A stretch of DNA of 64,000 bases from Bacteroidota bacterium (GTDB lineage: Bacteria; Bacteroidota; Bacteroidia; B-17B0; Aurantibacillaceae), in contig CANFTW010000011.1 of assembly GCA_947450025.1 (NCBI GenBank), positions 1-64,000 on the forward strand, written 5' to 3'. This document shows positions 14,257 through 43,029 of the stretch, piece after piece. The notes beneath the pieces were generated by a model, which did no database searches, was not told where the DNA came from, and saw only the letters and a list, made by a program, of their open reading frames with translations. The position numbers and the translations under genes are program-made. Numbering within the stretch: position 1 is the first letter of the stretch; each line of letters opens with the position of its first letter.

Positions 14257-14652
14257 GTGAATCGTTTAAAATATATCATATTAATAACATTATGTATGTC
14301 ATGTTTTTATAATGGTAAATCACAAACTTCGGTTATTTATGATACGAATGATTCTATTTCAAATATCATATTACCCAATGTATTTACGCCAAACTTTGAC
14401 AGTATAAATGATGTTTTTAAGCCCTATTTGGATGAAATTGTTGATTTAAATTTCAGCATATTTAATCGTTATGGCAACTTAATTTTCGAAACCAATCGAT
14501 TACATGGTTTTTGGGATGGGAGAACAACGAGCGGAGAGCCTTGCAGCGACGGTGTTTATTTTTGTGTTATAAACGCTACTGGCATTGAAGGTAAAAAATA
14601 TAAAGAAAAAACTTTTGTACAATTATTCACGAATGGATTCTATAAACAATAA
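14257..14652 (+). CDS. free-standing T9SS type B sorting domain protein
   Basis: The product has 131 residues with a GTG start. After a signal peptide (1-22) and a linker of about 15 residues, it consists of one type B (gliding-motility-associated, CHU_C-type) sorting domain. Signatures are LPNVFTPNFDSINDVFKPYL, FSIFNRYGNLIFET, FWDGRTTSGEPCSDGVYF, and a closing beta strand. Normally this domain sits at the end of very large adhesins; here it has no cargo. The start of the ABC ATPase gene overlaps its end by 20 bp. I do not know its role; it could be a small surface protein or a remnant of a larger gene. Confidence 0.8.
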   Translation: MNRLKYIILITLCMSCFYNGKSQTSVIYDTNDSISNIILPNVFTPNFDSINDVFKPYLDEIVDLNFSIFNRYGNLIFETNRLHGFWDGRTTSGEPCSDGVYFCVINATGIEGKKYKEKTFVQLFTNGFYKQ

Positions 14653-29119: not shown

Positions 29120-30010
29120 TTAAAATAATAGTCCAAAATGAAACAAGAACTTAGCCATAAAATTTTGTTTCAAAAGCGGCTTATATTTTTTCTCCAAAGT
29201 TTTATCCCAATTTAGAATATATGCTGTATAATTACTGATATAATACGTTGTGCAATCTGCATTTTTACCAATCGCAAAATCCATAACCTCTTGTCTTAGT
29301 TCTTTTTTCACAATTCTCCTCCTTCTCCCAAACCAATACCGATGGATATATAAATCTGGTGCGCCTAAATAATGTATAGTCTCATGCGCAATCGTAACTG
29401 ATTTATTACTTCCAATAAAGGCTCTTCCACCTTGATAAAAACCTAGAATACTACTTTTTTTAACCTTTAATAAATGAAACATAAATAAGGTATTATCAGA
29501 TTGATTGAATCTTGAAGGTAAATGAATTTTTCGGGCAACGGAAGTATCTTTAATTTGCTTTGCTAGTGAATCAAATAGTCTTTTTTTCCAATTAACATTT
29601 TCAATTTTTTCTTCTTGAGTCTTTGTTTTTTTTCTTGTGACTACTTTAAAAAATTGTTTTTGTGTTAAATCCTGTAAACTTTTTCTTGGTAATTTATGTA
29701 CAAAATTTTGTTTTAAAGTAGTATCCTTATTTAGGATCCAATGTTCCTTAAATATTAAATATTGACCTCTTTTATGAACCTCCTTAGTTAACCAATTAAA
29801 CGCTTTTTTAGATTCACGAGAAAACGAATTTGATGTTGCTGTATCAGCTAATTTTTTCGAACTACTTGTAAGAATAAAATGATAAACATTTACAGTGTCT
29901 TTAACTGGACTAGCTTGAATTTTTACAGGAACTTTTACAAAAAAACAAGCATGAAAAAGTATCGTTAAAAATATAAGTGAAAGTAACTTTATTAATTTTA
30001 TAAAATTCAA
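29120..30010 (-). CDS. lipoprotein with metzincin-type zinc protease motif
   Basis: The 296-residue product has a membrane-export signal ending FHAC (lipid anchor at C22). A basic central part (about 100-150) lacks recognisable domains. Near the C terminus it has H209-E-T-I-H213-Y-L-G216-A-P-D219-L-Y. This is the HExxHxxGxxD zinc motif of metzincins, resembling immune inhibitor A-type peptidases in its G-x-x-D-x-Y ending. A methionine at about 243 (QEVMDFA) could be the Met-turn. I infer a surface or periplasmic metallopeptidase; the family is not certain. It lies 26 bp downstream of the GlmU-family gene. Confidence 0.6.
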   Translation of the reverse strand: MNFIKLIKLLSLIFLTILFHACFFVKVPVKIQASPVKDTVNVYHFILTSSSKKLADTATSNSFSRESKKAFNWLTKEVHKRGQYLIFKEHWILNKDTTLKQNFVHKLPRKSLQDLTQKQFFKVVTRKKTKTQEEKIENVNWKKRLFDSLAKQIKDTSVARKIHLPSRFNQSDNTLFMFHLLKVKKSSILGFYQGGRAFIGSNKSVTIAHETIHYLGAPDLYIHRYWFGRRRRIVKKELRQEVMDFAIGKNADCTTYYISNYTAYILNWDKTLEKKYKPLLKQNFMAKFLFHFGLLF

Positions 30011-30036
30011 AAAATAAATATTGAGATGAATAATAA

Positions 30037-31215
30037 TTACCCTCTTTCTTTTTCTGTATTATTAAATATTGTTTGTAAAATTTGATATTCCTCAGCATTC
30101 ATCGTTAAGTTGCGACGAGCATATACACGTTTTGCAGTTTCTATCATTTTATCAAACTTATATACCTCCATGCCTTCGGCACCACCCCAACTATAACTTG
30201 GAATATGTGTTGATGGAAATCCTCCACCAAAAATATTAGCACCTACCCCAACAACAGTTCCGGTATTAAACATAGTATTAATACCACACTTGCTATGATC
30301 CCCCATCATTAGACCACAAAATTGCAATCCTGTGTCTACCATCTTTTCCTGAGCATAATTATATAATTTTACATGACTATAATTATTTTTTAAATTAGAG
30401 TTATTCGTATCTGCTCCTAAATTGCACCACTCCCCTATAACACTATTTCCTAAAAAACCATCATGCGCTTTATTACTAAATCCAAAAACAACTGAGTTGT
30501 TTATTTCGCCACCTACTTTACTGTGAGGACCAATCGTGGTAGGACCGTAAACCTTCGTACTTAATTTTAACGCAGAGTGTTCACACAAAGCAAAAGGCCC
30601 TCTCACAACAGACCCTTCCATAATTTCAGCTTCTTTCCCAATATAGATAGGTCCAGAAGTTGTGTTTAAAATAGCGGCTTCTACTGAAGCTCCTTCTTCT
30701 AAAAAAATATCTTTAACATTTCCGATAATGGTATTTGAAGAGGATAAAGATTGTGAAGATCGCCCTTTTGTAATTAAATCAAAATCTTGTTTAATAGCTT
30801 CACCATTTTTGGAGAAAATATCCCAAGTATTATCTACCGATAAATAATTTAAGGTTGTTTCTTCTGAACTTAGCAATGCTTCCTGAATATTTAATGCAGA
30901 AGCCATATGACTTCTATAGGCAACTAGAGTATTTCCTTTTTTTAATCCAGTATTAAACTCCAAATTATTTATTTGTGATAACAATTCGGGGGTAGGACAA
31001 ATTTTCCCATTTATAAATACAGCATTATTGGTATACACCGCCTTATACTTGTGACTTAAATACGGTTGTGTTTGAAAGGTTAACTTTCCACTTAAATATG
31101 TTTCCCATTTTTGAGTAATCGTTAATATACCAATTCGTATTTCAGAAACAGGTTTTGTATATGTAAATGGCAATAATTGAAGCCAAGTTGTATCATCAAA
31201 CAATATATAGTTCAT
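30037..31215 (-). CDS. GlmU-family putative sugar nucleotidyltransferase
   Basis: The 392-residue protein belongs to a Bacteroidota family named for its similarity to GlmU. The N-terminal part (MNYILFDDTTWLQLLPFTYT and on) corresponds to a diverged nucleotidyltransferase-like domain. From about 165 it has left-handed beta-helix hexapeptide repeats (SGPIYIGKEAEIMEGSVVRG, GPTTIGPHSKVGGEINNSVV, HDGFLGNSVIGEWCNLGADT). The exact reaction is not established. One base separates its start from the stop of the large barrel/Ig-repeat gene, indicating an operon. Confidence 0.8.
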   Translation of the reverse strand: MNYILFDDTTWLQLLPFTYTKPVSEIRIGILTITQKWETYLSGKLTFQTQPYLSHKYKAVYTNNAVFINGKICPTPELLSQINNLEFNTGLKKGNTLVAYRSHMASALNIQEALLSSEETTLNYLSVDNTWDIFSKNGEAIKQDFDLITKGRSSQSLSSSNTIIGNVKDIFLEEGASVEAAILNTTSGPIYIGKEAEIMEGSVVRGPFALCEHSALKLSTKVYGPTTIGPHSKVGGEINNSVVFGFSNKAHDGFLGNSVIGEWCNLGADTNNSNLKNNYSHVKLYNYAQEKMVDTGLQFCGLMMGDHSKCGINTMFNTGTVVGVGANIFGGGFPSTHIPSYSWGGAEGMEVYKFDKMIETAKRVYARRNLTMNAEEYQILQTIFNNTEKERG

Positions 31216-31216
31216 A

Positions 31217-34200
31217 TTAGCGAGGTCTTCGAGGTGTAGGTGTTGAATTGATATTTGGTTTACTTATAGAATCTGATTTTACTCCTGCGGGTTTTGTTTC
31301 ATTAGTTGGTTGGCCTTGAATAACCCTAGGATTAACTTTAATTGGATTATTTACTTTTTGAACAGGACAGGCACCTTGTGTATCTCCATGAGCTTGATGT
31401 GCAGGCCATGCTGAAGGAGAAATAGAAATCGTTTGAGGATTTTGAGAATTTCCTGGTGGTATATGACAAATAGTAATTTGTTGAGACGTATCTGCAGGGG
31501 CAACTGTTGGTGTAGAAACCGTAGTTGGAGTTTGATTTGCTACTATTTCATAAACCACTATTTCTGTTTTTGTAATACTTCCTGTCGTATTAGATCCTGT
31601 TACTGAAACACTATTTTGACCTGGATTTAAAGTACCAATAAAATCACCCTGTGGAGCTGCAAAATTATAATTAGTAACGGGTACACCATTTAAACTTACT
31701 TGAATATCATTTAGAATAACATTTTGGATATTAAATTGGAAATTATAAGAACTAACATTAACGGTAGGTGTTCCTGTTGGCTGAGTGATGGTAACAATTG
31801 GCGCAGGTTTACCAACTCTATATCCTACAACTGCTTTTGCTGTATCAGAGCCATCATTATTGTTAGCAATAATTCTTAAAGTATTATTTCCTGAAACTAA
31901 ATTAGCAGGAAACTCAAAATTATACCCATCAAAATTATAATTGGTAATTATTGAACCATTAAACTTTACGCTTAGTCCATTAGTAGCATTTAACATATTT
32001 GTTATTGTAGCTGAATATGTAAATGTTGGTAAGGTAGTTGTCGTATTTGGCAAACTTGGGTTTGTGAAAATAATCTCTGGAGGCAATTTAATATCAGCAT
32101 GCGGCGCATAGTTCACATTAATTATCTTGGAATCAGAACCAAATTGATTCGTTCCAGTTACAGAAAGAGTATTATCTCCAACAGCTAAGTTTGTTTGAAA
32201 AAATATTTTTTTAGTAACCGCATCATAAGTAAAATTTGATTGAGGTACTCCGTTAAATACAACCGCTATATTAGCCTGACTATTAACATGTAACACATAT
32301 AACTCAAAATTATATAAAAGATTGTCGGTGGCATTTATCGTAGATGGTGGATTTATTAAAGTAACTACAGGAAGAATGGGAACTGTTTTTTTAGTATACA
32401 TAACCGTATCTTTTTTCGAATCCGTTCCATCTATATTGGTAGCAGTAACTTCAAAAGTATTAAGTCCAGTATTCAATGAAGCTGGAAAGGTAATATTAGG
32501 CGCTGTAAATGAATAATTAGTCACTGCCACTCCATTAAACATTACCTGTAACTGACTCGTTGCCGATACATTTGTAACGTTTGCAGAAAATGTAAAAGCA
32601 GCTACTAATGAATTAGCTTTAGTATTTACTGGATTTAATATAGTAACAACAGGAGGATTCTTGACGTCAATTTTTGGTTTATAGTTAACTGTGATTGTCT
32701 TTGAATCAACTCCATCAGTATTCGTTCCTGTTACCACTAACGTATTGATACCTACTGCTAATGTTGAATAAAAATTCAAATATTTAGAATTTACATCATA
32801 TGTAAATGAAGAATTAGGATTACCATTAAAGATAAGGGATATATTATTTTTAGAAACAACATTTAATACCGATAATTTAAAATTATAAAATGCTTGAGCC
32901 GTAGCATATACAGGTGTAGCAGGTAAAACTAAATTAACGATTGGAGGAATTCGAGCTAATCTAGGTTCTTGATAAATAATATTTGTTACTTCTGTATCTT
33001 CGCCAACTAAATTATTTGCAGTAATGCTAATTGAATTTGAACCAGGAATTAAATTAGCTACAAATACAATTTGCTTTGTTGAAGGGTTATAAGTAAATGG
33101 AATAGAAAGTCCATTAAAATAAATAGAAATATCATTTTGAGCAATTACATTCAATACTTGTGCTTTTACGGTATAAGTTGGATTAGTCATAATTTGTCCA
33201 GGCTGAACCGGATTAATATAGTTGACAATAGGAGGATCTCCAGCTGCTTTAGGTAATTCATAAATGACTGTTGTTGACTCATTATCAGAACCCGCCGTAT
33301 TTGTTGCCACAATATTTACAGGATTGACTCCGACATTTAATGCTGAATTATACTCTAAAATATGACTTTGAGCATTGAACGTAAAATTAGAACGAACAAT
33401 TCCATTTAACTTAAACTGAATTTGATTTGCGGATGTAATATTTAAAATTTGTGCAGAAATTTTATATGATGCATTATTAACAACAAAGGCATTCACAGGA
33501 GGGGTAATATAAGTTACAATAGGCTTTATCTCTGCTGGTGGCGGAGGAGGAATAATTACCGTGTTTGTAGTTGCTACAGTTGGAGAAGTTACTGATGCTG
33601 TATTTGTAGTTGCTACAGTTGGTGTAGGCGTTACGATAATAGGATTTGATGTCACTGTATTTGAAGTTGCAACCGTATTAGTTGACACCACAGTATTGGT
33701 ATAAGCCGTTTGATCAGGGTTGGCTGTTGAACTTGTCTTTTTGTGTTTTCCTCTCAGTGTAAATACTAAATTTAAACCTGTGTAATGATAATAATCATTG
33801 CTACCAGCAATCTTATCATGATTTACACCCAATTTTCCATCTAATAAATCGGCATTAGTTCCTTGAGGAAAGGTGACTTTATATTCCCATAGCATAGAAA
33901 AGCCAGGAGAAAATTGATATCCAAAACCAATACCAGCAGATGGTGAAAAGGTTATTAAATTACCGCCCTTACTTCCAAATGCATTTGATTCGTATTTTTT
34001 ATCAATAAGAGTATTATATGAATTTAATGTTTTGGTTCTATTTCCTGTCGAATCAATTAAACTGAAATTATATAATTTTCCATTCCCATCAAGTAGATCG
34101 GATTTTGTTCGATAACTTGTAATTCCTATACCTCCCCATAAATTTAATAATACATGCGTTCTTTCTCTTAACCTATTAAAGTTTAACTGTAACTCTAAGG

Positions 34201-34591
34201 AACCTTCTCCTAATTTCATTTTATAATTATCATAAACATATTGTCTGCCCATTGGCACACTATCTACAAAATTTACAGCAGGATCATATTTACCATTATA
34301 TGCATCATTAGACTTTACATCATAATTTCTATTAAAATCCATGCCGTAAGTATTTGCTGCTAAATAGCGTCCTCTAATAGCAAATGAAAAAATATTGGTT
34401 TTATTTTCATGCAAGCCTCTTTCAAGTGTAAAGCCTCCTGCCATACCCCAACAACTTCTATAATCAGCTGTTTGCCATGCACCACCAGCATTTAATCCTA
34501 ATCGCCATGAGTTATAATAACGTGAAAGATCTTTTTGAGAAAAAGATTGAAGAGACAATAGGCTAATAAATACTAAATAGATTTTTTTCAT
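31217..34591 (-). CDS. beta-barrel protein with seven Ig-like repeats and Cys/His C-terminal motif
   Basis: The 1124-residue exported protein has several zones. After the signal peptide (1-18), residues about 20-290 look like an outer-membrane barrel (SWRLGLNAGGAWQTADYRSC, SAGIGFGYQFSPGFSMLWEY). A Thr/Asn/Val-rich linker follows (about 300-350). Then come seven Ig-like units of about 90 residues (about 355-1012), each with a PPIVNYINP-like start, a VxFNG turn, and TGTN or ATNxxGxDS. After another linker lies a CHIPPGN...PAHQAHGDT...C motif (about 1040-1075) and a basic Pro-rich tail. There is no T9SS sorting domain. It is probably a surface-exposed binding protein anchored by its own barrel. 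Confidence 0.75.
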   Translation of the reverse strand: MKKIYLVFISLLSLQSFSQKDLSRYYNSWRLGLNAGGAWQTADYRSCWGMAGGFTLERGLHENKTNIFSFAIRGRYLAANTYGMDFNRNYDVKSNDAYNGKYDPAVNFVDSVPMGRQYVYDNYKMKLGEGSLELQLNFNRLRERTHVLLNLWGGIGITSYRTKSDLLDGNGKLYNFSLIDSTGNRTKTLNSYNTLIDKKYESNAFGSKGGNLITFSPSAGIGFGYQFSPGFSMLWEYKVTFPQGTNADLLDGKLGVNHDKIAGSNDYYHYTGLNLVFTLRGKHKKTSSTANPDQTAYTNTVVSTNTVATSNTVTSNPIIVTPTPTVATTNTASVTSPTVATTNTVIIPPPPPAEIKPIVTYITPPVNAFVVNNASYKISAQILNITSANQIQFKLNGIVRSNFTFNAQSHILEYNSALNVGVNPVNIVATNTAGSDNESTTVIYELPKAAGDPPIVNYINPVQPGQIMTNPTYTVKAQVLNVIAQNDISIYFNGLSIPFTYNPSTKQIVFVANLIPGSNSISITANNLVGEDTEVTNIIYQEPRLARIPPIVNLVLPATPVYATAQAFYNFKLSVLNVVSKNNISLIFNGNPNSSFTYDVNSKYLNFYSTLAVGINTLVVTGTNTDGVDSKTITVNYKPKIDVKNPPVVTILNPVNTKANSLVAAFTFSANVTNVSATSQLQVMFNGVAVTNYSFTAPNITFPASLNTGLNTFEVTATNIDGTDSKKDTVMYTKKTVPILPVVTLINPPSTINATDNLLYNFELYVLHVNSQANIAVVFNGVPQSNFTYDAVTKKIFFQTNLAVGDNTLSVTGTNQFGSDSKIINVNYAPHADIKLPPEIIFTNPSLPNTTTTLPTFTYSATITNMLNATNGLSVKFNGSIITNYNFDGYNFEFPANLVSGNNTLRIIANNNDGSDTAKAVVGYRVGKPAPIVTITQPTGTPTVNVSSYNFQFNIQNVILNDIQVSLNGVPVTNYNFAAPQGDFIGTLNPGQNSVSVTGSNTTGSITKTEIVVYEIVANQTPTTVSTPTVAPADTSQQITICHIPPGNSQNPQTISISPSAWPAHQAHGDTQGACPVQKVNNPIKVNPRVIQGQPTNETKPAGVKSDSISKPNINSTPTPRRPR

Positions 34592-34611
34592 AGTTTACAT
34601 TTTAAAACAAT

Positions 34612-34638
34612 AAAACATAGACAAATTGTCTATGTTTT
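34612..34638 (-). terminator. perfect 13-bp inverted repeat, probable terminator
   Basis: Two complementary 13-base arms flank a single central A (so the real loop is 5 or more bases). U-rich sequence follows on the minus strand. A second perfect palindrome (ACAATAATTATTGT) is at 34646-34659. Together they lie in the 77 bp between the PorE-like gene and the barrel/Ig-repeat gene and may end or attenuate the upstream transcript. Confidence 0.6.
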
Positions 34639-34668
34639 AAAATTAACAATAATTATTGTGCCAAAAAA

Positions 34669-37347
34669 TTAAGGTTTTCCAATTTCTACAACCCTAAATT
34701 CGGTTCTTCTGTTCTTGGCGTGCTCTTCCTCACTGCAAGGCGCATCATTTTTACAGTTATTTAACAATTTACTTTCGCCATATCCTACAGCCGTCAATCG
34801 TGATTTAGTAATTCCTTTAGAAATAATATAATCAACCGCAGCCTTTGCTCGCTTTTGAGATAAAACTAAGTTAAACTCATCCGAACTTCTCGAATCGGTA
34901 TGTGAACTTAACTCAATATTTAAATTATTATTGGAGTTTAATACAGTAATGACTTTGTCTAAGATATTCTTTCCGGAAGCATCAATTTTATAATCACCAT
35001 AGGCATAATATAAATTTTCAATAATGGTAATTTCTTGCCGTTTCTCTTTATTTTTCATAGTTAAAACTTCTAGCCAAGGATCATCAACAGAATAATCTCC
35101 TAATGCTGTTTTATCAATTTCTAACAACTCGAATTGAAATTTACCAGATTTACTTTTCTTAATTTCTTTATAAATTCTTCCTTTTGAATCTGCCACATAC
35201 AATTTAATCAAATTAGAAAATCTAGGATCTGTTTCATCAATGGCAAATAAATAATTTTTATCAGCCCCTAAATTTCTAAACACAAACTTCCCCTGTTGGT
35301 CAGTCATAATATTCGCAATCACCTCTTTTTGATTAAAAATAGTCACCTTTGCGTTACTAATAGCCTTTTTATCCTGGTCAAACAAGTATCCATTTAACCC
35401 CATTATTAAATCTTCATCATTCACACTTAAATCTGTAATCGCAGAATTATCAACGCCTAATAAAGAAAATTTAAACTTACCTTTTGAATCGGATTGAGCT
35501 AACTTTACCTCTTTACCACTTTTATTAGTTAAAATAATTTTAGCGTTAATTGGCACATCATCATCCTCAATGGTTAATGAATAATTTTGATCTAATGGTA
35601 AATTTCTAAATGCAAAAGCTCCAAATTCATTAGTTGTTGTTTGCTCAATAATGTCACCAAACTCATTTTTAATCATCACTTTTTTATTTGCAATAGGCTT
35701 ACTTGGATTTTCACCATACAATAAATTACCTGCTAAACTTAAATCATCATCATTATACAAATCAGGCATACCATTAGGATCTACTGGTAAATTCCTAAAA
35801 ACAAATTTTTGTCCAGTACCATTATTATGTGTAATTCGTGTGATCTTAGAGTCTTTATCCGCTAAATAATACCTTGATTTATTTTTCAAATTAGCTTCTG
35901 TTCCTTCAATTTCGGCCATATAAGTTTTATCTGCATCTAAATTTCTAAATACAAAATAACCTTTTTCATTTGTTCTAGTTGAGTCAATTGCCTTACCATT
36001 TCCATCTAATAAAAATACTTTAACATCCTTTGCTGGATCATTGGCGTTTTCTGTTAACAAAACGGTGCCATCAATAGAAATATTTTTATTAGTGAATTTA
36101 AAATAATAAATATCATCCTCTCCTTTTCCACCCTCTCTGTTAGAAGAAAAATAGCCAATAGAATCATTTAAAAATGTAATTCCAAAGTCATCGGCTTTGC
36201 TATTTAGATAAAGACCTTCATTTCTATTTAACAGCCAATTACCATTTAATTGTTTCGCCGAAAAAATATCTAAATCTCCAAAACCTGGTAATCCATTCGA
36301 TGAAAAATATAGGATACCATTTTTTTTAATTGTTGGAAAAACTTCATCACCGCTTGTATTAATATCAAAACCTAAATTAATAGGCTTACCCCATCCATCG
36401 CCATTTTTTTGACACATCCAAATATCTTGTCCTCCAATAGAACCTGGCATATCAGAAGAAAAGAAAAGTACACTTCCGTCCTCATTTAAAGATGGATGTG
36501 CACAAGAATAGTCATCGCTATTAAAAGGAAATGAATTTGATTTGGAAAAATTTGATTCATCAACTTCACTGAAATAAATTTTAGCCCTATTAATAAAATT
36601 TTCATTTCGTTTACTAACCAAATAATTTACGCGAGTATAGGCGGCTAATTTACCGTCCCCGGAAAATGAAATTGGGCCATCATGAAAACTAGAATTAACA
36701 TGCTTATTGACAAGCTTTTCTTTTTTAATCTCATTATTTTTTATTTCTGAAGAAAAAATATTTAAATACGGTTGGTTGGTTGTTGAAGATGTTTCAAAAT
36801 CAACTAGATCATTAATTTTTTCGGCTACAAAAAATAGTTTGTTATTTAATACTACAGGACAAAATTCTGAACGTTTAGTATTAATAGATTCTATGTTTTT
36901 TATTTCATATTCTTTGGGTTTTGATTCCCAATATTTAATTTCCTGACAAGATTTAATAGCATTTTGAGCAACTTTACTATTCTCATTCCCTTTTATAAAA
37001 ATAGTATATTGATTTAGGGCTTCACTATATTTATTGTTTGATTTTAAAACATTACCATAATTAAAATTAACCTCTTTTGCAACTGGACCAAGGCTAATTG
37101 CTTTCGCATAATAATTTTCTGCTTTTGTATAATTATTTAAAATACGGTAACAATCTGCCAACTTAATCATCGCTGCTTGTTTATCCATTGACTTGCTATT
37201 AGCTACTTTTTCATAAAAATGAACCGCTTCAGCGTAGTTAAATTTCAAATAATGCTTATCTGCTTTTTTCATTTGAGCTATGCCCACAAATGAAAAAAGC
37301 AATAAATTAACTGTACTATATAAAATATATTTTTTTATTGAACTCAT
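34669..37347 (-). CDS. PorE-like OmpA family protein (TPR, PD40, CRD, OmpA)
   Basis: The 892-residue protein starts with a signal peptide (1-24), then TPR repeats (about 25-135) and a PD40 beta-propeller (about 165-415, blades such as GSVLFFSSDMPGSIGGQDIW). Carboxypeptidase-regulatory-like repeats follow (about 430-770), with four copies of an F-x-FRNLxxD motif. It ends in an OmpA peptidoglycan-binding domain (about 785-892, LSSHTDSRSS then NRRTEFRVV). This is the architecture of PorE from the type IX secretion system and of many proteins paired with PorP/SprF. It probably links an outer-membrane complex to the cell wall. It starts 9 bp after the PorP/SprF gene. Confidence 0.9.
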   Translation of the reverse strand: MSSIKKYILYSTVNLLLFSFVGIAQMKKADKHYLKFNYAEAVHFYEKVANSKSMDKQAAMIKLADCYRILNNYTKAENYYAKAISLGPVAKEVNFNYGNVLKSNNKYSEALNQYTIFIKGNENSKVAQNAIKSCQEIKYWESKPKEYEIKNIESINTKRSEFCPVVLNNKLFFVAEKINDLVDFETSSTTNQPYLNIFSSEIKNNEIKKEKLVNKHVNSSFHDGPISFSGDGKLAAYTRVNYLVSKRNENFINRAKIYFSEVDESNFSKSNSFPFNSDDYSCAHPSLNEDGSVLFFSSDMPGSIGGQDIWMCQKNGDGWGKPINLGFDINTSGDEVFPTIKKNGILYFSSNGLPGFGDLDIFSAKQLNGNWLLNRNEGLYLNSKADDFGITFLNDSIGYFSSNREGGKGEDDIYYFKFTNKNISIDGTVLLTENANDPAKDVKVFLLDGNGKAIDSTRTNEKGYFVFRNLDADKTYMAEIEGTEANLKNKSRYYLADKDSKITRITHNNGTGQKFVFRNLPVDPNGMPDLYNDDDLSLAGNLLYGENPSKPIANKKVMIKNEFGDIIEQTTTNEFGAFAFRNLPLDQNYSLTIEDDDVPINAKIILTNKSGKEVKLAQSDSKGKFKFSLLGVDNSAITDLSVNDEDLIMGLNGYLFDQDKKAISNAKVTIFNQKEVIANIMTDQQGKFVFRNLGADKNYLFAIDETDPRFSNLIKLYVADSKGRIYKEIKKSKSGKFQFELLEIDKTALGDYSVDDPWLEVLTMKNKEKRQEITIIENLYYAYGDYKIDASGKNILDKVITVLNSNNNLNIELSSHTDSRSSDEFNLVLSQKRAKAAVDYIISKGITKSRLTAVGYGESKLLNNCKNDAPCSEEEHAKNRRTEFRVVEIGKP

Positions 37348-37356
37348 AGCTATATT

Positions 37357-38304
37357 TTACAAATAACGAGGCGATAACATTTTTGATTTATATGTATTAA
37401 AATCAAATCCAATTAATATTTCATGGCCATTTCCTAATTTATTTTGAGTTTTTCCAATTCCTTTATCAAAAGCATAGCCAATTTTTAAGCTATGAGTTAT
37501 ATATAATTGAGCTAAGGCCCCTACCGTTGCATCGGATCTATAAAATACACCTAACCATAAACGTTGGTTAATTAAAAAATTTAAATTTCCATCAAGGCTA
37601 TTAATCGTTTTCGTTCCTTTATAAATGATTGTTGGATTAATTACTAAATTATCATTTATAGAAAATCCCTTACTAATAATTCCGAAAAGATGAGTTGATA
37701 ATTTATAGGTTAAATCATATTCCATCAAACTTCCTGAAATATTTGTATAAGATATTTTATCATTATAAATATAAGCTGAATTTAAATGTGTTGCACTAAT
37801 ACCTGCATAAAAAGAATTTGATTTTAAATAAATTCCTGCATCAAAATCAGGCTTTAGTTTATTAGAAGAGATATTAGCGTAGGCATTTACTTCTCCGGGA
37901 TCTTTATAATTCATTTTATTAAAATCAAACACATAATTTACAACACCAGCCCTTAACCCAAACGACAACTTTAATTTATTACTTATTGGCAAAATATATG
38001 CTATGTTTCCATAAGCTGCGGTTACTCTTTTTGGTCCAATAATATCGTTATAAGCACTAAAGCCTAATCCAATTCGTTTTTTCTTTAAAGGCCCATGAAA
38101 ACTAAATGATTGAGTTGATGGAGCTCCATCAAAACCTGACCATTGTTGTCTAATATCAAGCACTGCACTTAAAGCATCCTTTGAACCTGCATAGGCAGGA
38201 TTAATTACCATTTGATTAAATTGATATTGACTGTATTGAGGGTCTTGCTGACCAAATAATGACCAGGTATAAATAAAACTAAAGATTAATAATTTTGTTC
38301 TCAT
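37357..38304 (-). CDS. PorP/SprF family outer-membrane protein
   Basis: The 315-residue product has a signal peptide (1-18, ending FGQQ) and the family hallmark QDPQYSQYQFNQMVINPAYA. Further on it shows IRQQWSGFDGAPSTQSFSFH and KKKRIGLGFSAYNDIIGP, followed by barrel strands. PorP/SprF proteins are outer-membrane barrels that help T9SS substrates with type B sorting domains reach or stay on the surface. The gene immediately upstream (6-bp gap) encodes exactly such a type B protein, so the pair probably works together. Confidence 0.95.
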   Translation of the reverse strand: MRTKLLIFSFIYTWSLFGQQDPQYSQYQFNQMVINPAYAGSKDALSAVLDIRQQWSGFDGAPSTQSFSFHGPLKKKRIGLGFSAYNDIIGPKRVTAAYGNIAYILPISNKLKLSFGLRAGVVNYVFDFNKMNYKDPGEVNAYANISSNKLKPDFDAGIYLKSNSFYAGISATHLNSAYIYNDKISYTNISGSLMEYDLTYKLSTHLFGIISKGFSINDNLVINPTIIYKGTKTINSLDGNLNFLINQRLWLGVFYRSDATVGALAQLYITHSLKIGYAFDKGIGKTQNKLGNGHEILIGFDFNTYKSKMLSPRYL

Positions 38305-38310
38305 TCTATT

Positions 38311-39087
38311 TTAATTAGTTAATTCTACCCAACCTTTTTTTACCCCATTTCCTCCTTCAATTTCAATGATGTAGAAATAAGTTCCACTAACCAATTGCGT
38401 TCCGTTTTGTTGTTTCCCATTCCAAACAACTGATGAATTATTATAATTAGATGCGCTCCACACTTTATTTCCCCAGCGATTAAAAATACTCACTGAATTG
38501 TTCGGGAAATTTTCAATATTTTCTATGACCCAATTATCATTTAATCCATCACCATCTGGTGTAAATCCATTATAAACCGAAATTTGACAAGGAGATGTAC
38601 TTGCTAAAACATTATAACTAAATGACACAGAATCTATAACAATACTATTTGAATTAACTGCTAAAACAGTGACACTATAATTACCTGGCGATAAACTATC
38701 GATACTTGAACAATTCTGAGATGGACAAATTGATGATGGATTCCATACATATACTAATTGAATAGCGCTACTAGGTGAAGAATTTAAAACTAAGGAAATA
38801 AATCCATCATGTTTATTTAAACAACTTTCATTTTGAAATAACGGAGTGATACTTAAATCAATAGTTCCAACAATTTCAGGTTGTAAAAAACCTTGAGTGA
38901 TTATATTATTGCTGTTTATAATGGTTGTCACAATAGGCTCTCCAATATTATAATACAATTCAGTACCAGTAGTTCCTACAGTTCCTCCTCCACCAGAAGT
39001 GAGAATAACTGAAGGTGTGACGCTTTGAGAATAAACTCTTGACCAACTTAATAATATGAAAAATAAAAATAATTTTCTCACGCTCAA
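38311..39087 (-). CDS. SprB-repeat protein with T9SS type B sorting domain
   Basis: The 258-residue product has a signal peptide (1-20) and an N-terminal segment with GTTGTELYYNIGEPIVTTI and ITQGFLQP, common in short T9SS proteins. One SprB-like repeat follows (about 87-140, DGFISLVLNSSP to LSPGNYSVTV). A type B sorting domain completes it (about 170-258: NGFTPDGDGLNDNWVIENIE, VSIFNRWGNKVW, GTYFYIIEIEG). It lies directly behind the giant adhesin gene with no gap and in front of its presumed PorP/SprF partner. It may be a small adhesin or a carrier that brings the adhesin to the T9SS. Confidence 0.88.
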   Translation of the reverse strand: MSVRKLFLFFILLSWSRVYSQSVTPSVILTSGGGGTVGTTGTELYYNIGEPIVTTIINSNNIITQGFLQPEIVGTIDLSITPLFQNESCLNKHDGFISLVLNSSPSSAIQLVYVWNPSSICPSQNCSSIDSLSPGNYSVTVLAVNSNSIVIDSVSFSYNVLASTSPCQISVYNGFTPDGDGLNDNWVIENIENFPNNSVSIFNRWGNKVWSASNYNNSSVVWNGKQQNGTQLVSGTYFYIIEIEGGNGVKKGWVELTN

Positions 39088-42000
39088 TTATTTAAATTCT
39101 TTAATAATCACACTACTTCCGCTAAAACAACCTGGATCAATATATACAGTAGAAGCACTTCCGCCACCCATACAATATGCCCAAAGTTCAACATTATAAG
39201 TTCCAGCAACTAAACCATCAAATTCAGCAACAATGGTTACTCCTTTATTATTAGTAACATTAAATACAGTTGCATTATCTAAAAAGTAGATTGCCTTTCC
39301 TGAATTACCATTTGCTGAAATACCATTAATTTTAACTTCATATGTAACATTATTAGAACCTACTAAATCAAAAACGTTTAAATCTGTTTGCAAAATAACT
39401 TCAACATGCGTATCAGAATAAGTTTTAGTTAAGGTTCCTAAATTGTTATTAAATTTCACAGGTGTTGTGGACACAGACGCTATACTTTGACAAGATGTCG
39501 AACCATAGGTAATTTTCATAATTGGCATCCATGAGGCATTTCCAGAAGCATCTGACACTAAAACTTTTCCAACACCTTGAGAGCCATCAGTAATCGCCAT
39601 AGAACCATTTACATGAAATTTATTGATTGGTGATGTTGTACCTACTCCTACAAAACCATTACTTGGATTAAAAGACATTGCACTAAAAGGTGTTCCATTG
39701 CCTTCATTTTTTAAAAACATATTTGCAGATCCGTCCACATCAAAATACCAATTGTAATTTGGCTGATTACTGTTCCCAAATTTTATTTGAGAACCAGCTG
39801 AATTAACAACATGTAATGGAGATGAAGGTGATATAATTCCTATACCCACATTTCCATCATTTCTTACTACAAATAAATCAACACTTCCTGAATTAGCAGC
39901 CTTAAGCGCATAACTAGAATTTGTTGAAGTTTTACCTTTAATAAAAATTCCGCCATCAAATGCTCCCGCATAAGAAGTAACTGAAGCATTTGTATTTTTC
40001 ACAGCAAGAGCCTCAAATGTGCCAGATGCAGATACTCTAACTGCATTAGTATTATTTACATTGACTACATCCAAAACTGCCCCAGGAGAAGTTGTACCAA
40101 TACCAACATTCACAGCATCGACGCCTGTTCCACCTAAAACCATACTATTACTTGTACCAACCTTTGCATTATAACCAATTGCGGTAGCATTTGTAAGATT
40201 ATTTGATAATACATCAGCATTAGTACCTAAAGCTGTATTAAAATTTCCTGTTGTATTACTTACTAAAGCAGATGATCCCAACGCAACATTCTGAACACCT
40301 GTGCTATTTGTATTCATTGCACTACCTCCAATAGCAATGTTATAATTTCCTGATGTATTAGAAAATAATGCTTGTGTGCCTATACCAACGTTATATTGAC
40401 CTATTGTGTTATTCCGAAGAGAAAATCTTCCTCCTGAAAAGTTATCTGACCCTGTTGTAGTATTATACAAAGCTTCGCGACCAATTGCAGTATTATTTAC
40501 TCCAGTTGTATTAAAATAAAGTGCGTTTATACCGACAGCAGTATTAAAAGCCCCAGATGATGATGAAAACATAGCATCTCTACCAATTGCTGTATTACCT
40601 AATCCAGTATTACTCGCCGGTGTTGTAGAACCAAGAAGCGAATTATATCCCACACTTGTATTTGTATTATCCCAAGAAGTGGCAGTACTATTTGCATTAT
40701 ATTGAGAGTAATATCCTAGAGCCACACCATTATTTCCAGCTACATTAGAAAATAATGAAAATGCGCCATTCGCAGTATTAGAATTTCCTGTAGAATTAGA
40801 ATAAAGTGAATTAAATCCAATAGCAGAATTTGATGAACCTATTGTGTTTGAGTATAAAGATGTATTACCAATTGCAGTATTTCGCCAACCATTACTTACA
40901 CTTGTTGGTTGGTTCAGGTATAGAGTTCTATAACCAACTGCAACGTTATCAGTGCTCCATGATGTATTACCATTTGAATAACTTTGTGTAAAAAGCGCTT
41001 CTCTTCCAATTGCAATATTTTGCGAAGCATAGGTATTATTAGTTAATGCCGATGTACCAACCGCGGTATTATCATAAGCATTATTTACTCGCAATGCTCC
41101 AACGCCAAAAGCCGAATTAGAACTACCTACTATATTATCTCGTAAAGAATTTAGACCATAGGCAGTATTATTAATGCCCGTATTTGCATTTCCACTTAGT
41201 AATCCAAAAAATGTATTTCCATTAACATTATCTATTCTTCCTGCTTTTTGATTGTTTACTTTAATTGAAAATGGCACATTATCTGTTGTCCCAATAAAAT
41301 TAGTTCCATCTACTGTTCCAGAATTTCCGATCAACGACCAATCGTTGCTCGCAGGTAAAGTAATTGTGTTACCTCCTGAAATTGAAATTGAATTACTACT
41401 GATTGTTAATGATTGATTTGGAGATGACAAAGTATAATTAGGTGCCGTTCCTGAAATTGAAATACCAGTACTTGGAGTTAACACTGTTGTACTAGATGAA
41501 GGTATAGTTAACGTTTGAGTTGGGTAGGCTCCAGATAAAGTTCCTCCTGTAACAGCTAATGAAGGAGTTACAGATGCTACTGTATAACTAGGAGATGAGC
41601 CTGTAATTGTAACATTTGCTCCTTGAGTTAATGTAGTAGTCGGATTAGAAGGTAAAGTAATAGTATTACCGCCAGTTATTGAAAGTGAATTACTATTTAT
41701 AGTTAATGATTGATTTGGTGAAGACAAAGTATAATTTGGCGCGGTTCCAGAAATTGTAATTCCCGTACTTTGAGTTAACACTGTTGTACTTGAAGTTGGA
41801 ATAGTTAATGTTTGATTTGGATATAATCCTGATAAAGTACCACCTGTAACAGTTAATGTAGGAGTTACTGAGCCTACAGTATAACTGGGAGATGACCCTA
41901 AAACTATAACATTAGCACCAGAAGTTAAAGTTGTTGAGGGAGATGAAGGTAATAATACAGTATTTCCTCCTGGTCCATTAATGGTTAGTGAATTTGAGTT

Positions 42001-43029
42001 TACTGTTAAACTTGGGCTCGGTATTGCTACTGAGTTCCCATTAGTAATCGTTAATGAACCGCTTGATATACTTAAAGTTGGACTAGGAACACTTACCGTA
42101 AAAGTATTTCCTGATGTCGGAGTTACAGTTGCTAAACCAGATCCTACAATATTAACAGATGAAGGGCTTGTTATATTTAAAGTTGTTGATGAAACTGCGG
42201 TACCTTGAGTTAAACTCAAAACACTAGTTGCTGGCGAATATGATAAAATTGGAGACGGAACGTCTACGATATAAACATTTGAAGTTGGATTAGTAACAGA
42301 AGCTACACCATTACCTGATATTGAAGGAGTTATTATTGCGGCGGTATTAGAAATCACCCCACCTGAAATATTAATTCCGTTACCTCCAGTGTAGATTTGT
42401 GTTGTTGGTGTACTTATTGTGAAATTTGGATAAGTTCCTGTTACTGAAGCTGAACCTGAGGATGTAATTGTAACTGTTTGATCAGGTGATGTATTAGAAA
42501 TAATATTTCCTGAAATACCAATTCCATTTCCTGCAGTATAAGAAGTTGAGGAAGGAACATTAATCGTATAACTTCCTCCAATCGATGTTACTGTATTTGG
42601 TGCATTTATAGTGATTGTAGGAGTTGGTGATGCATTACCTGAAGTTTCTGCATATAAGGCATAAGGCACACTCATAAATTGCTGAGTACCTACGGAAACA
42701 TATGCTGTTCCTCCTGCTGGGTCAAGCGATACTTCCATAAAGTAAGGTCCGTTTGCCCAGTTAATAGAAATAAAACTTGCTGTATTGACTGAACCAATTC
42801 CTAAGGTAAATAAACCAAGGGAATTAGTTATTTTAGAATGAGTTTCAGAAAAAACGACTGTACCAGACGCACTACCCTGATGTAAATCTAATTTAATTCC
42901 AATATTTTGATTGGATAATACAGATCCTGCTGCATTTCTAGCAACTCCTTGATAGGATATTTCTTTAGGAGCTTGACTGAAGGAAATAAGTGAAATACTT
43001 AGTAAAAGAGAAAATAATAGTTTTTTCAT
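39088..43029 (-). CDS. giant beta-repeat adhesin with YadA-like head repeats
   Basis: The 1313-residue protein has a signal peptide (1-19). Next is a conserved Bacteroidota domain (about 20-125: SYQGVARNAAGSVLSNQNIG, GPYFMEVSLDP, FMSVPYALYAETSG). A Ser/Thr/Pro-rich beta region (about 130-565) includes two tandem 99-residue copies (about 365-463 and 464-562). About 15-20 degenerate NTAIGxxALxxN units (about 605-965) resemble YadA/Hia head repeats. A C-terminal part has repeated VGIGTTSP-type segments and a final beta domain. No T9SS or autotransporter anchor is visible. It is the first gene of a tight operon with the SprB-like, PorP/SprF and PorE-like genes. Confidence 0.85.
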   Translation of the reverse strand: MKKLLFSLLLSISLISFSQAPKEISYQGVARNAAGSVLSNQNIGIKLDLHQGSASGTVVFSETHSKITNSLGLFTLGIGSVNTASFISINWANGPYFMEVSLDPAGGTAYVSVGTQQFMSVPYALYAETSGNASPTPTITINAPNTVTSIGGSYTINVPSSTSYTAGNGIGISGNIISNTSPDQTVTITSSGSASVTGTYPNFTISTPTTQIYTGGNGINISGGVISNTAAIITPSISGNGVASVTNPTSNVYIVDVPSPILSYSPATSVLSLTQGTAVSSTTLNITSPSSVNIVGSGLATVTPTSGNTFTVSVPSPTLSISSGSLTITNGNSVAIPSPSLTVNSNSLTINGPGGNTVLLPSSPSTTLTSGANVIVLGSSPSYTVGSVTPTLTVTGGTLSGLYPNQTLTIPTSSTTVLTQSTGITISGTAPNYTLSSPNQSLTINSNSLSITGGNTITLPSNPTTTLTQGANVTITGSSPSYTVASVTPSLAVTGGTLSGAYPTQTLTIPSSSTTVLTPSTGISISGTAPNYTLSSPNQSLTISSNSISISGGNTITLPASNDWSLIGNSGTVDGTNFIGTTDNVPFSIKVNNQKAGRIDNVNGNTFFGLLSGNANTGINNTAYGLNSLRDNIVGSSNSAFGVGALRVNNAYDNTAVGTSALTNNTYASQNIAIGREALFTQSYSNGNTSWSTDNVAVGYRTLYLNQPTSVSNGWRNTAIGNTSLYSNTIGSSNSAIGFNSLYSNSTGNSNTANGAFSLFSNVAGNNGVALGYYSQYNANSTATSWDNTNTSVGYNSLLGSTTPASNTGLGNTAIGRDAMFSSSSGAFNTAVGINALYFNTTGVNNTAIGREALYNTTTGSDNFSGGRFSLRNNTIGQYNVGIGTQALFSNTSGNYNIAIGGSAMNTNSTGVQNVALGSSALVSNTTGNFNTALGTNADVLSNNLTNATAIGYNAKVGTSNSMVLGGTGVDAVNVGIGTTSPGAVLDVVNVNNTNAVRVSASGTFEALAVKNTNASVTSYAGAFDGGIFIKGKTSTNSSYALKAANSGSVDLFVVRNDGNVGIGIISPSSPLHVVNSAGSQIKFGNSNQPNYNWYFDVDGSANMFLKNEGNGTPFSAMSFNPSNGFVGVGTTSPINKFHVNGSMAITDGSQGVGKVLVSDASGNASWMPIMKITYGSTSCQSIASVSTTPVKFNNNLGTLTKTYSDTHVEVILQTDLNVFDLVGSNNVTYEVKINGISANGNSGKAIYFLDNATVFNVTNNKGVTIVAEFDGLVAGTYNVELWAYCMGGGSASTVYIDPGCFSGSSVIIKEFK
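41345..41938 (-). repeat. tandem 297-bp repeat inside the adhesin gene
   Basis: The interval about 41345-41641 repeats at about 41642-41938. The offset is 297 bp (99 codons), measured from GTTAATGATTGATTTGG at 41405 and 41702. The copies differ at many third positions but encode nearly the same residues (SSPSYTV, TLTIP, TVLT, GTAPNYTLSSPNQSLTI). The divergence implies an old duplication kept by selection. It is a possible site for length variation by recombination. Confidence 0.75.

Follow-up and report, generated by a model that had tools for sequence, protein, structure and literature searches.

On the minus strand of the window, the whole 64,000-nucleotide stretch of DNA analysed here, four closely packed genes encode a very long fibre, a short protein with a type B T9SS signal, an outer-membrane carrier and a PorE-like protein, with further genes located beyond a hairpin. 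The features are as follows.

39088 to 43029, minus strand: fibre of 1313 amino acids with a signal peptide, fibN (residues ~19-130), a repeat stalk, NTAIG repeats (~616-975) and a C-terminal tip, without a T9SS CTD
42619 to 42975, minus strand: fibN domain of the fibre (MAT_N-like), predicted by AlphaFold2 as an Ig-like β-sandwich
38311 to 39087, minus strand: short type B protein of 258 amino acids with a signal peptide, GEP (~22-73), a middle region and a type B CTD (169-256)
38869 to 39024, minus strand: GEP domain (NIGEPIVTT...ITQGFLQP), the candidate docking domain for fibN
37357 to 38304, minus strand: PorP/SprF-family outer-membrane carrier (TIGR03519), cysteine-free and hence without the SprF-type C-terminal CXC
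34669 to 37347, minus strand: PorE-like protein of 892 amino acids with TPR, PD40 and CarboxypepD_reg repeats and an OmpA peptidoglycan-binding domain
34611 to 34639, minus strand: 13-bp hairpin (z -2.98) with a T-run, the likely terminator of the four-gene operon
31217 to 34591, minus strand: Ig-like-repeat protein of 1124 amino acids with seven repeats, probably its own transcription unit, found after porE in several relatives
29120 to 30010: zinc-motif gene, its product having a HETIH motif and a lipobox-like N terminus

The positions of the open reading frames and the gaps of 0, 6 and 9 bp between the fibre, 258-residue, PorP and 892-residue genes are as given in an earlier note on this DNA, with the TTG start of the 258-residue gene abutting the stop codon of the fibre gene. 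That note described the 258-residue protein as a SprB-repeat protein with a type B tail. The tail is present (PF13585, 99.1 bits against a cut-off of 27, E 1.6e-28 in Pfam; TIGR04131, 57.3 bits against 35) and SprB repeats were not found, the Pfam search giving no PF13573 match in this protein. The PorP/SprF assignment is confirmed, with TIGR03519 (NCBIfam) scoring 235 bits, well above its cut-off of 90.55. The PorE-like label holds for the TPR, PD40, CarboxypepD_reg (CRD) and OmpA architecture, and not for the score, which lies below the curated cut-off for PorE (NF052230, 373 bits against 600) and also below that for CHU_0125 in NCBIfam. The earlier description of the 1313-residue protein as lacking a T9SS tail agrees with the absence of any T9SS signal in NCBIfam and of any Pfam match at E<=0.1.

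The earlier note extended the module down to position 29120, thereby including the genes for the Ig-repeat, GlmU-family and zinc-motif proteins. This grouping is doubtful because a 13-bp hairpin and T-run separate porE from the Ig-repeat gene, suggesting that the four-gene operon ends there and that the remaining genes probably form a separate unit. The descriptions of the individual proteins stand, with seven readable repeats in the 1124-residue protein each carrying an F/L-N-G motif, a match of the GlmU-family protein to TIGR03991 (E 2.7e-135), and the HETIH motif and lipobox-like N terminus of the putative zinc lipoprotein. In several genera the Ig-repeat gene comes after porE, with the GlmU gene after it in some, so that a functional link is possible despite the hairpin. 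Elsewhere in the window (14257-14652, plus strand) a 131-residue protein consists of little more than a signal peptide and a type B CTD, with neither a fibre nor a PorP gene adjacent.

The N-domain shared by the fibres, fibN, was defined from alignments A1 and A6 and is followed by a repeat stalk and then by a highly variable C terminus. The stalk of the window fibre contains YadA-head-like NTAIG repeats, and collagen is found in others. Pfam domains assigned to 104 tips include Peptidase_S74 (14 tips), H_lectin (10), Fib_succ_major (FISUMP; 9), collagen (8), Lcl_C (6) and C1q (5), and the tip of the window fibre matches no known domain family. Neither this fibre nor its tip has a Pfam match, including to the C-terminal YadA_anchor barrel. 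Several of the tip and stalk folds found in relatives are known trimeric folds, for which reason the fibres are predicted to be trimers; the S74 tip cleaves itself off. The fibN domain is modelled by AlphaFold2 as a confident small β-sandwich with a mean pLDDT of 85 (core ~95). No clear relative of it was identified in the PDB by sequence or by structure, with VIA Z scores of at most 6.5 to generic Ig-like folds.

Matches of stalk and tips to tail-fibre families in PHROGs could indicate a locus derived from a phage or encoding a phage tail fibre. The matches are confined to stalk and tip, with no fibN match in 50,697 phage records, and the locus is surrounded by chromosomal genes and genes of the T9SS, with synteny conserved, making a phage origin of the fibre extremely improbable.

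The distribution of T9SS signals between the two proteins is one-sided. With Pfam and NCBIfam a T9SS CTD is present on all 51 short proteins, and with NCBIfam (complete list) on none of the 104 fibre tips, while home-made CTD models are positive for 103 of 104 GEP proteins and for none of 176 fibN open reading frames. For the window fibre, Pfam and NCBIfam searches including a rescan of the C terminus give no type A, B or C CTD. The possibility that the fibre has an unrecognised CTD was likewise rejected, none being detected by Pfam, NCBIfam or the home-made models. The fibres carry a Sec signal only. Short proteins with a type A CTD have a median length of 162 amino acids, comprising ~21 residues of signal peptide, 50 of GEP and 7 of linker followed by the CTD, so that once the CTD is removed little else is left and the mature body is essentially GEP. 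The simplest interpretation of such a protein, when its gene adjoins that of a very long fibre, is that it is the adaptor of the fibre.

Orthologues of the short protein were sought in 60 relatives and occur at full length (250-290 amino acids) in the same genus, in the same family and in other families of the class. Of 26 such orthologous loci compared, which span several genera and families, 24 have a fibre-like gene immediately upstream of the short type B gene (the exceptions being L099 and L116). The gene order is conserved, as the proposal in the earlier note required. A PorP/SprF gene lies downstream in 22 of the 26, in several after an additional long type B protein, giving the order fibre(s), short type B protein, (extra type B protein), PorP, PorE. 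The extra type B protein (796-1505 amino acids) lies 3' of the short protein and usually before PorP in L106, L107, L110, L111, L112, L117, L118, L122 and L125, which may mean that a single carrier handles both type B substrates; the extra protein is absent from the window locus. Two related genomes (L117 and L118) have four tandem fibN fibres with differing tips followed by one short gene. The fibres adjoining the short gene at L096:7094-10720 and L101:10558-12429 have another N-domain (VEIVSTGSSTAYIVNIPG...), which is possibly a second docking type. At L145:3991-8597 a short GEP protein with a type B CTD precedes a fibN fibre, which is followed by a 538-residue open reading frame matching both PorP and PorE.

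The short proteins have in common a domain of ~50 residues following the signal peptide, termed GEP (pattern NIGEP...TQGFLQP), defined from alignment A2. A first GEP profile, trained on type B short proteins only, found 30 matches in 18 genomes representing 15 genera, 27 of which lie on the same strand as, and within 6 kb of, a fibN match (0.25 expected under uniform placement), with two of the remaining three at contig ends. Many of the matches are type A proteins whose sole resemblance to the training set is in GEP, occurring in other families and again beside fibN, with the type A GEP gene often directly upstream of the fibre rather than downstream. The genome of the window itself contains such a second pair (contig C18, L102:9648-11475), a 156-residue type A GEP protein separated by 7 bp from a 449-residue fibN fibre. 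Of 56 matches obtained with a broader profile (A7) in 296 genomes of the phylum, 50 lie next to fibN (0.18 expected), both gene orders and both CTD types being represented. Pairs are present in Chryseobacterium sp. JM1 and C. shigense DSM 17126, and divergent pairs occur outside the class, in another class. The pairing, which like the domain content and the CTD distribution is observed directly in the genomes, recurs across the phylum and is not a chance association. The split system that the earlier note proposed from a single instance is supported and belongs to a phylum-wide system, in which the CTD is borne by the short protein and in no case by the fibre, GEP occurs almost exclusively beside fibN, and type A CTDs are used as well.

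In the named loci 59 of 101 fibN open reading frames have a GEP gene nearby, a count that is partly circular as the profile was refined on the same loci, and the independent tests of adjacency are the 18-genome and 296-genome searches. The ~40% of fibN open reading frames in these loci with no GEP neighbour detected include a few that are accompanied by a CTD protein in which no GEP is recognisable. Such fibres would be expected if the short proteins and the fibres were independent surface proteins that do not interact and are linked only by a common operon, and the covariation of fibN and GEP distance matrices is equivocal on this point, with r(fibN,GEP) of 0.62 against r(fibN,CTD) of 0.53 for type A pairs and the reverse for type B pairs. 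Shared regulation as the whole explanation is nevertheless unlikely given the adjacency found phylum-wide, in either order and with either CTD type, and given a mature domain of ~50 residues that has no evident role as an independent adhesin.

The fibN domain is related to the N-domain of the mosaic adhesive trimer (MAT) fibres found in Bdellovibrio bacteriovorus. The MAT N-domain model of NCBIfam (NF053851) matches each of the 93 fibN sequences (best E 5.3e-17), below the 60-bit cut-off wherever scores are shown. The window fibN scores 33-37 bits against this cut-off of 60 over about half of the model, the match being seen with the N-domain alone and in the genome search and not with the full-length fibre. 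Genome-wide, 35 of 41 relatives have a sub-threshold match and the 14 control genomes have none, and in none of the 41 genomes does a match exceed the cut-off. On these sequence scores fibN is treated as a relative of the MAT N-domain and not as a certified member of the family. The MAT N-domain is described as invariant and as lying close to the cell surface, where it presumably attaches to a still unidentified element (PMC10769870).

The preferred reading is that the locus encodes a trimeric adhesin made of two parts, the fibre and a dedicated adaptor sorted by the T9SS that probably anchors, and perhaps exports, the fibre in trans. The fibre, which would consist of the fibN base, a trimeric stalk and the variable tip, has a Sec signal and no T9SS signal of its own. 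GEP of the short protein would dock onto the fibN base, and the T9SS would act on the CTD of the short protein. In the form seen in the window the type B CTD would bind its cognate PorP/SprF barrel, itself tied to peptidoglycan by the PorE-like protein, forming a chain from the fibre through the short protein, PorP and the PorE-like protein to the cell wall that would hold the fibre statically on the surface. From the sequences we infer GEP-fibN binding, trimerisation and this static location alike. In the type A form found elsewhere in the phylum the adaptor would instead be released or linked to LPS. Placing the signal on a separate protein would leave the C terminus of the fibre free for a trimerising, swappable and sometimes self-cleaving tip, and would allow one anchor to serve several fibres.

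The PorP and PorE-like genes of the window form suggest an anchoring role (PMC9143113), and they are left unexplained if the GEP protein is an assembly factor that caps or nucleates the fibre trimer, with the CTD merely bringing it to the surface. The small size of GEP and the low-confidence strand pairs in the AlphaFold2 model of the 258-residue protein, which is poor overall, could fit a strand-donating cap, and an assembly factor would likewise be encoded together with its partner; this function is considered quite improbable.

A narrower form of the preferred reading restricts the T9SS-sorted protein to the role of surface receptor, with the fibre crossing the outer membrane independently of the T9SS. 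We know of no T9SS in Bdellovibrio. Since this organism displays related MAT fibres (PMC10769870), export of the fibre by another route is conceivable, and the fibres here bear only a Sec signal, with a receptor role predicting the identical gene pairing. Set against this, fibN is limited to SprA-positive genomes in the phylum sample (68 of 68, Fisher p 1.4e-9, confounded by phylogeny) and no other exporter gene is consistently adjacent. Co-export also has a precedent in extracellular proteins that lack a CTD and yet depend on the T9SS (PMC9936825). Anchoring without co-export is accordingly a serious alternative that falls somewhat short of even chances. The wider form of the preferred reading, in which a small CTD adaptor binds the signal-less fibre base in the periplasm and takes the fibre through the SprA translocon, as a general mechanism throughout Bacteroidota that works with CTDs of type A or of type B, and in which the adaptor also corresponds to the missing surface receptor of MAT-type fibres, is put forward tentatively as a reading that may be correct and is on balance somewhat doubtful.

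In the open-access literature searched, no account was found of a split or piggyback T9SS system or of a partner protein that provides a T9SS signal in trans. Each half of the arrangement resembles a known system, and a demonstration of co-export in trans would establish a new way in which the T9SS exports proteins. The proposal offers testable answers to the questions of why some extracellular proteins lacking a CTD need the T9SS (PMC9936825) and of which component of the cell surface is bound by the invariant N-domain of MAT-type fibres (PMC10769870). The proposal further predicts that many of the short proteins annotated in Bacteroidota as 'T9SS sorting domain-containing proteins' are anchors for neighbouring fibres.

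Among characterised systems, proteins with a type B CTD emerge from the translocon in association with a PorP/SprF barrel of their own, which keeps them on the surface, and in Porphyromonas gingivalis PG1035, PorP and PorE form a complex in which PorE binds peptidoglycan (PMC9143113). A type B substrate whose operon contains a PorE homologue is found in static foci (PMC12618676). The window operon shares with PG1035-PorP-PorE and with Fjoh_3952-3951-3950 of F. johnsoniae a type B CTD substrate, a PorP/SprF carrier and a PorE-like gene in one operon, and the same static attachment to the cell wall is predicted (PMC9143113, PMC12618676). In those systems the CTD protein is taken to be the cargo or adhesin, whereas here it is small and lies beside a CTD-less fibre. 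The SprB-SprF system (sprCDBF operon) similarly combines a type B CTD, a PorP/SprF carrier and a surface adhesin, with the difference that SprB has a CTD of its own and is mobile. SprF is linked to the gliding track by a C-terminal Cys-X-Cys (PMC12635249), a motif absent from the cysteine-free window carrier and from the carriers of all 22 relatives, which are followed by a PorE-like gene; the lack of a SprF-type CXC fits static anchorage.

The YadA-type trimeric autotransporters resemble the window fibre in the YadA-head-like repeats and the probable trimeric stalk, and differ in that the fibre has no C-terminal membrane anchor and its order is reversed, with an N-terminal base and a C-terminal tip. 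The MAT fibres are similar in layout, having an N-domain of ~130 amino acids after the signal peptide, a trimer-type stalk and swappable tips including S74, although a T9SS-sorted partner is encoded alongside the fibre here and the match to NF053851 is partial and below the cut-off. The T9SS-dependent 'nonCTD' proteins of Flavobacterium columnare are, like the fibre, extracellular with no recognisable CTD, and they need the T9SS (PMC9936825). The cases studied there are peptidases without a known partner, whereas in the system described here the partner carrying the CTD is encoded next door.
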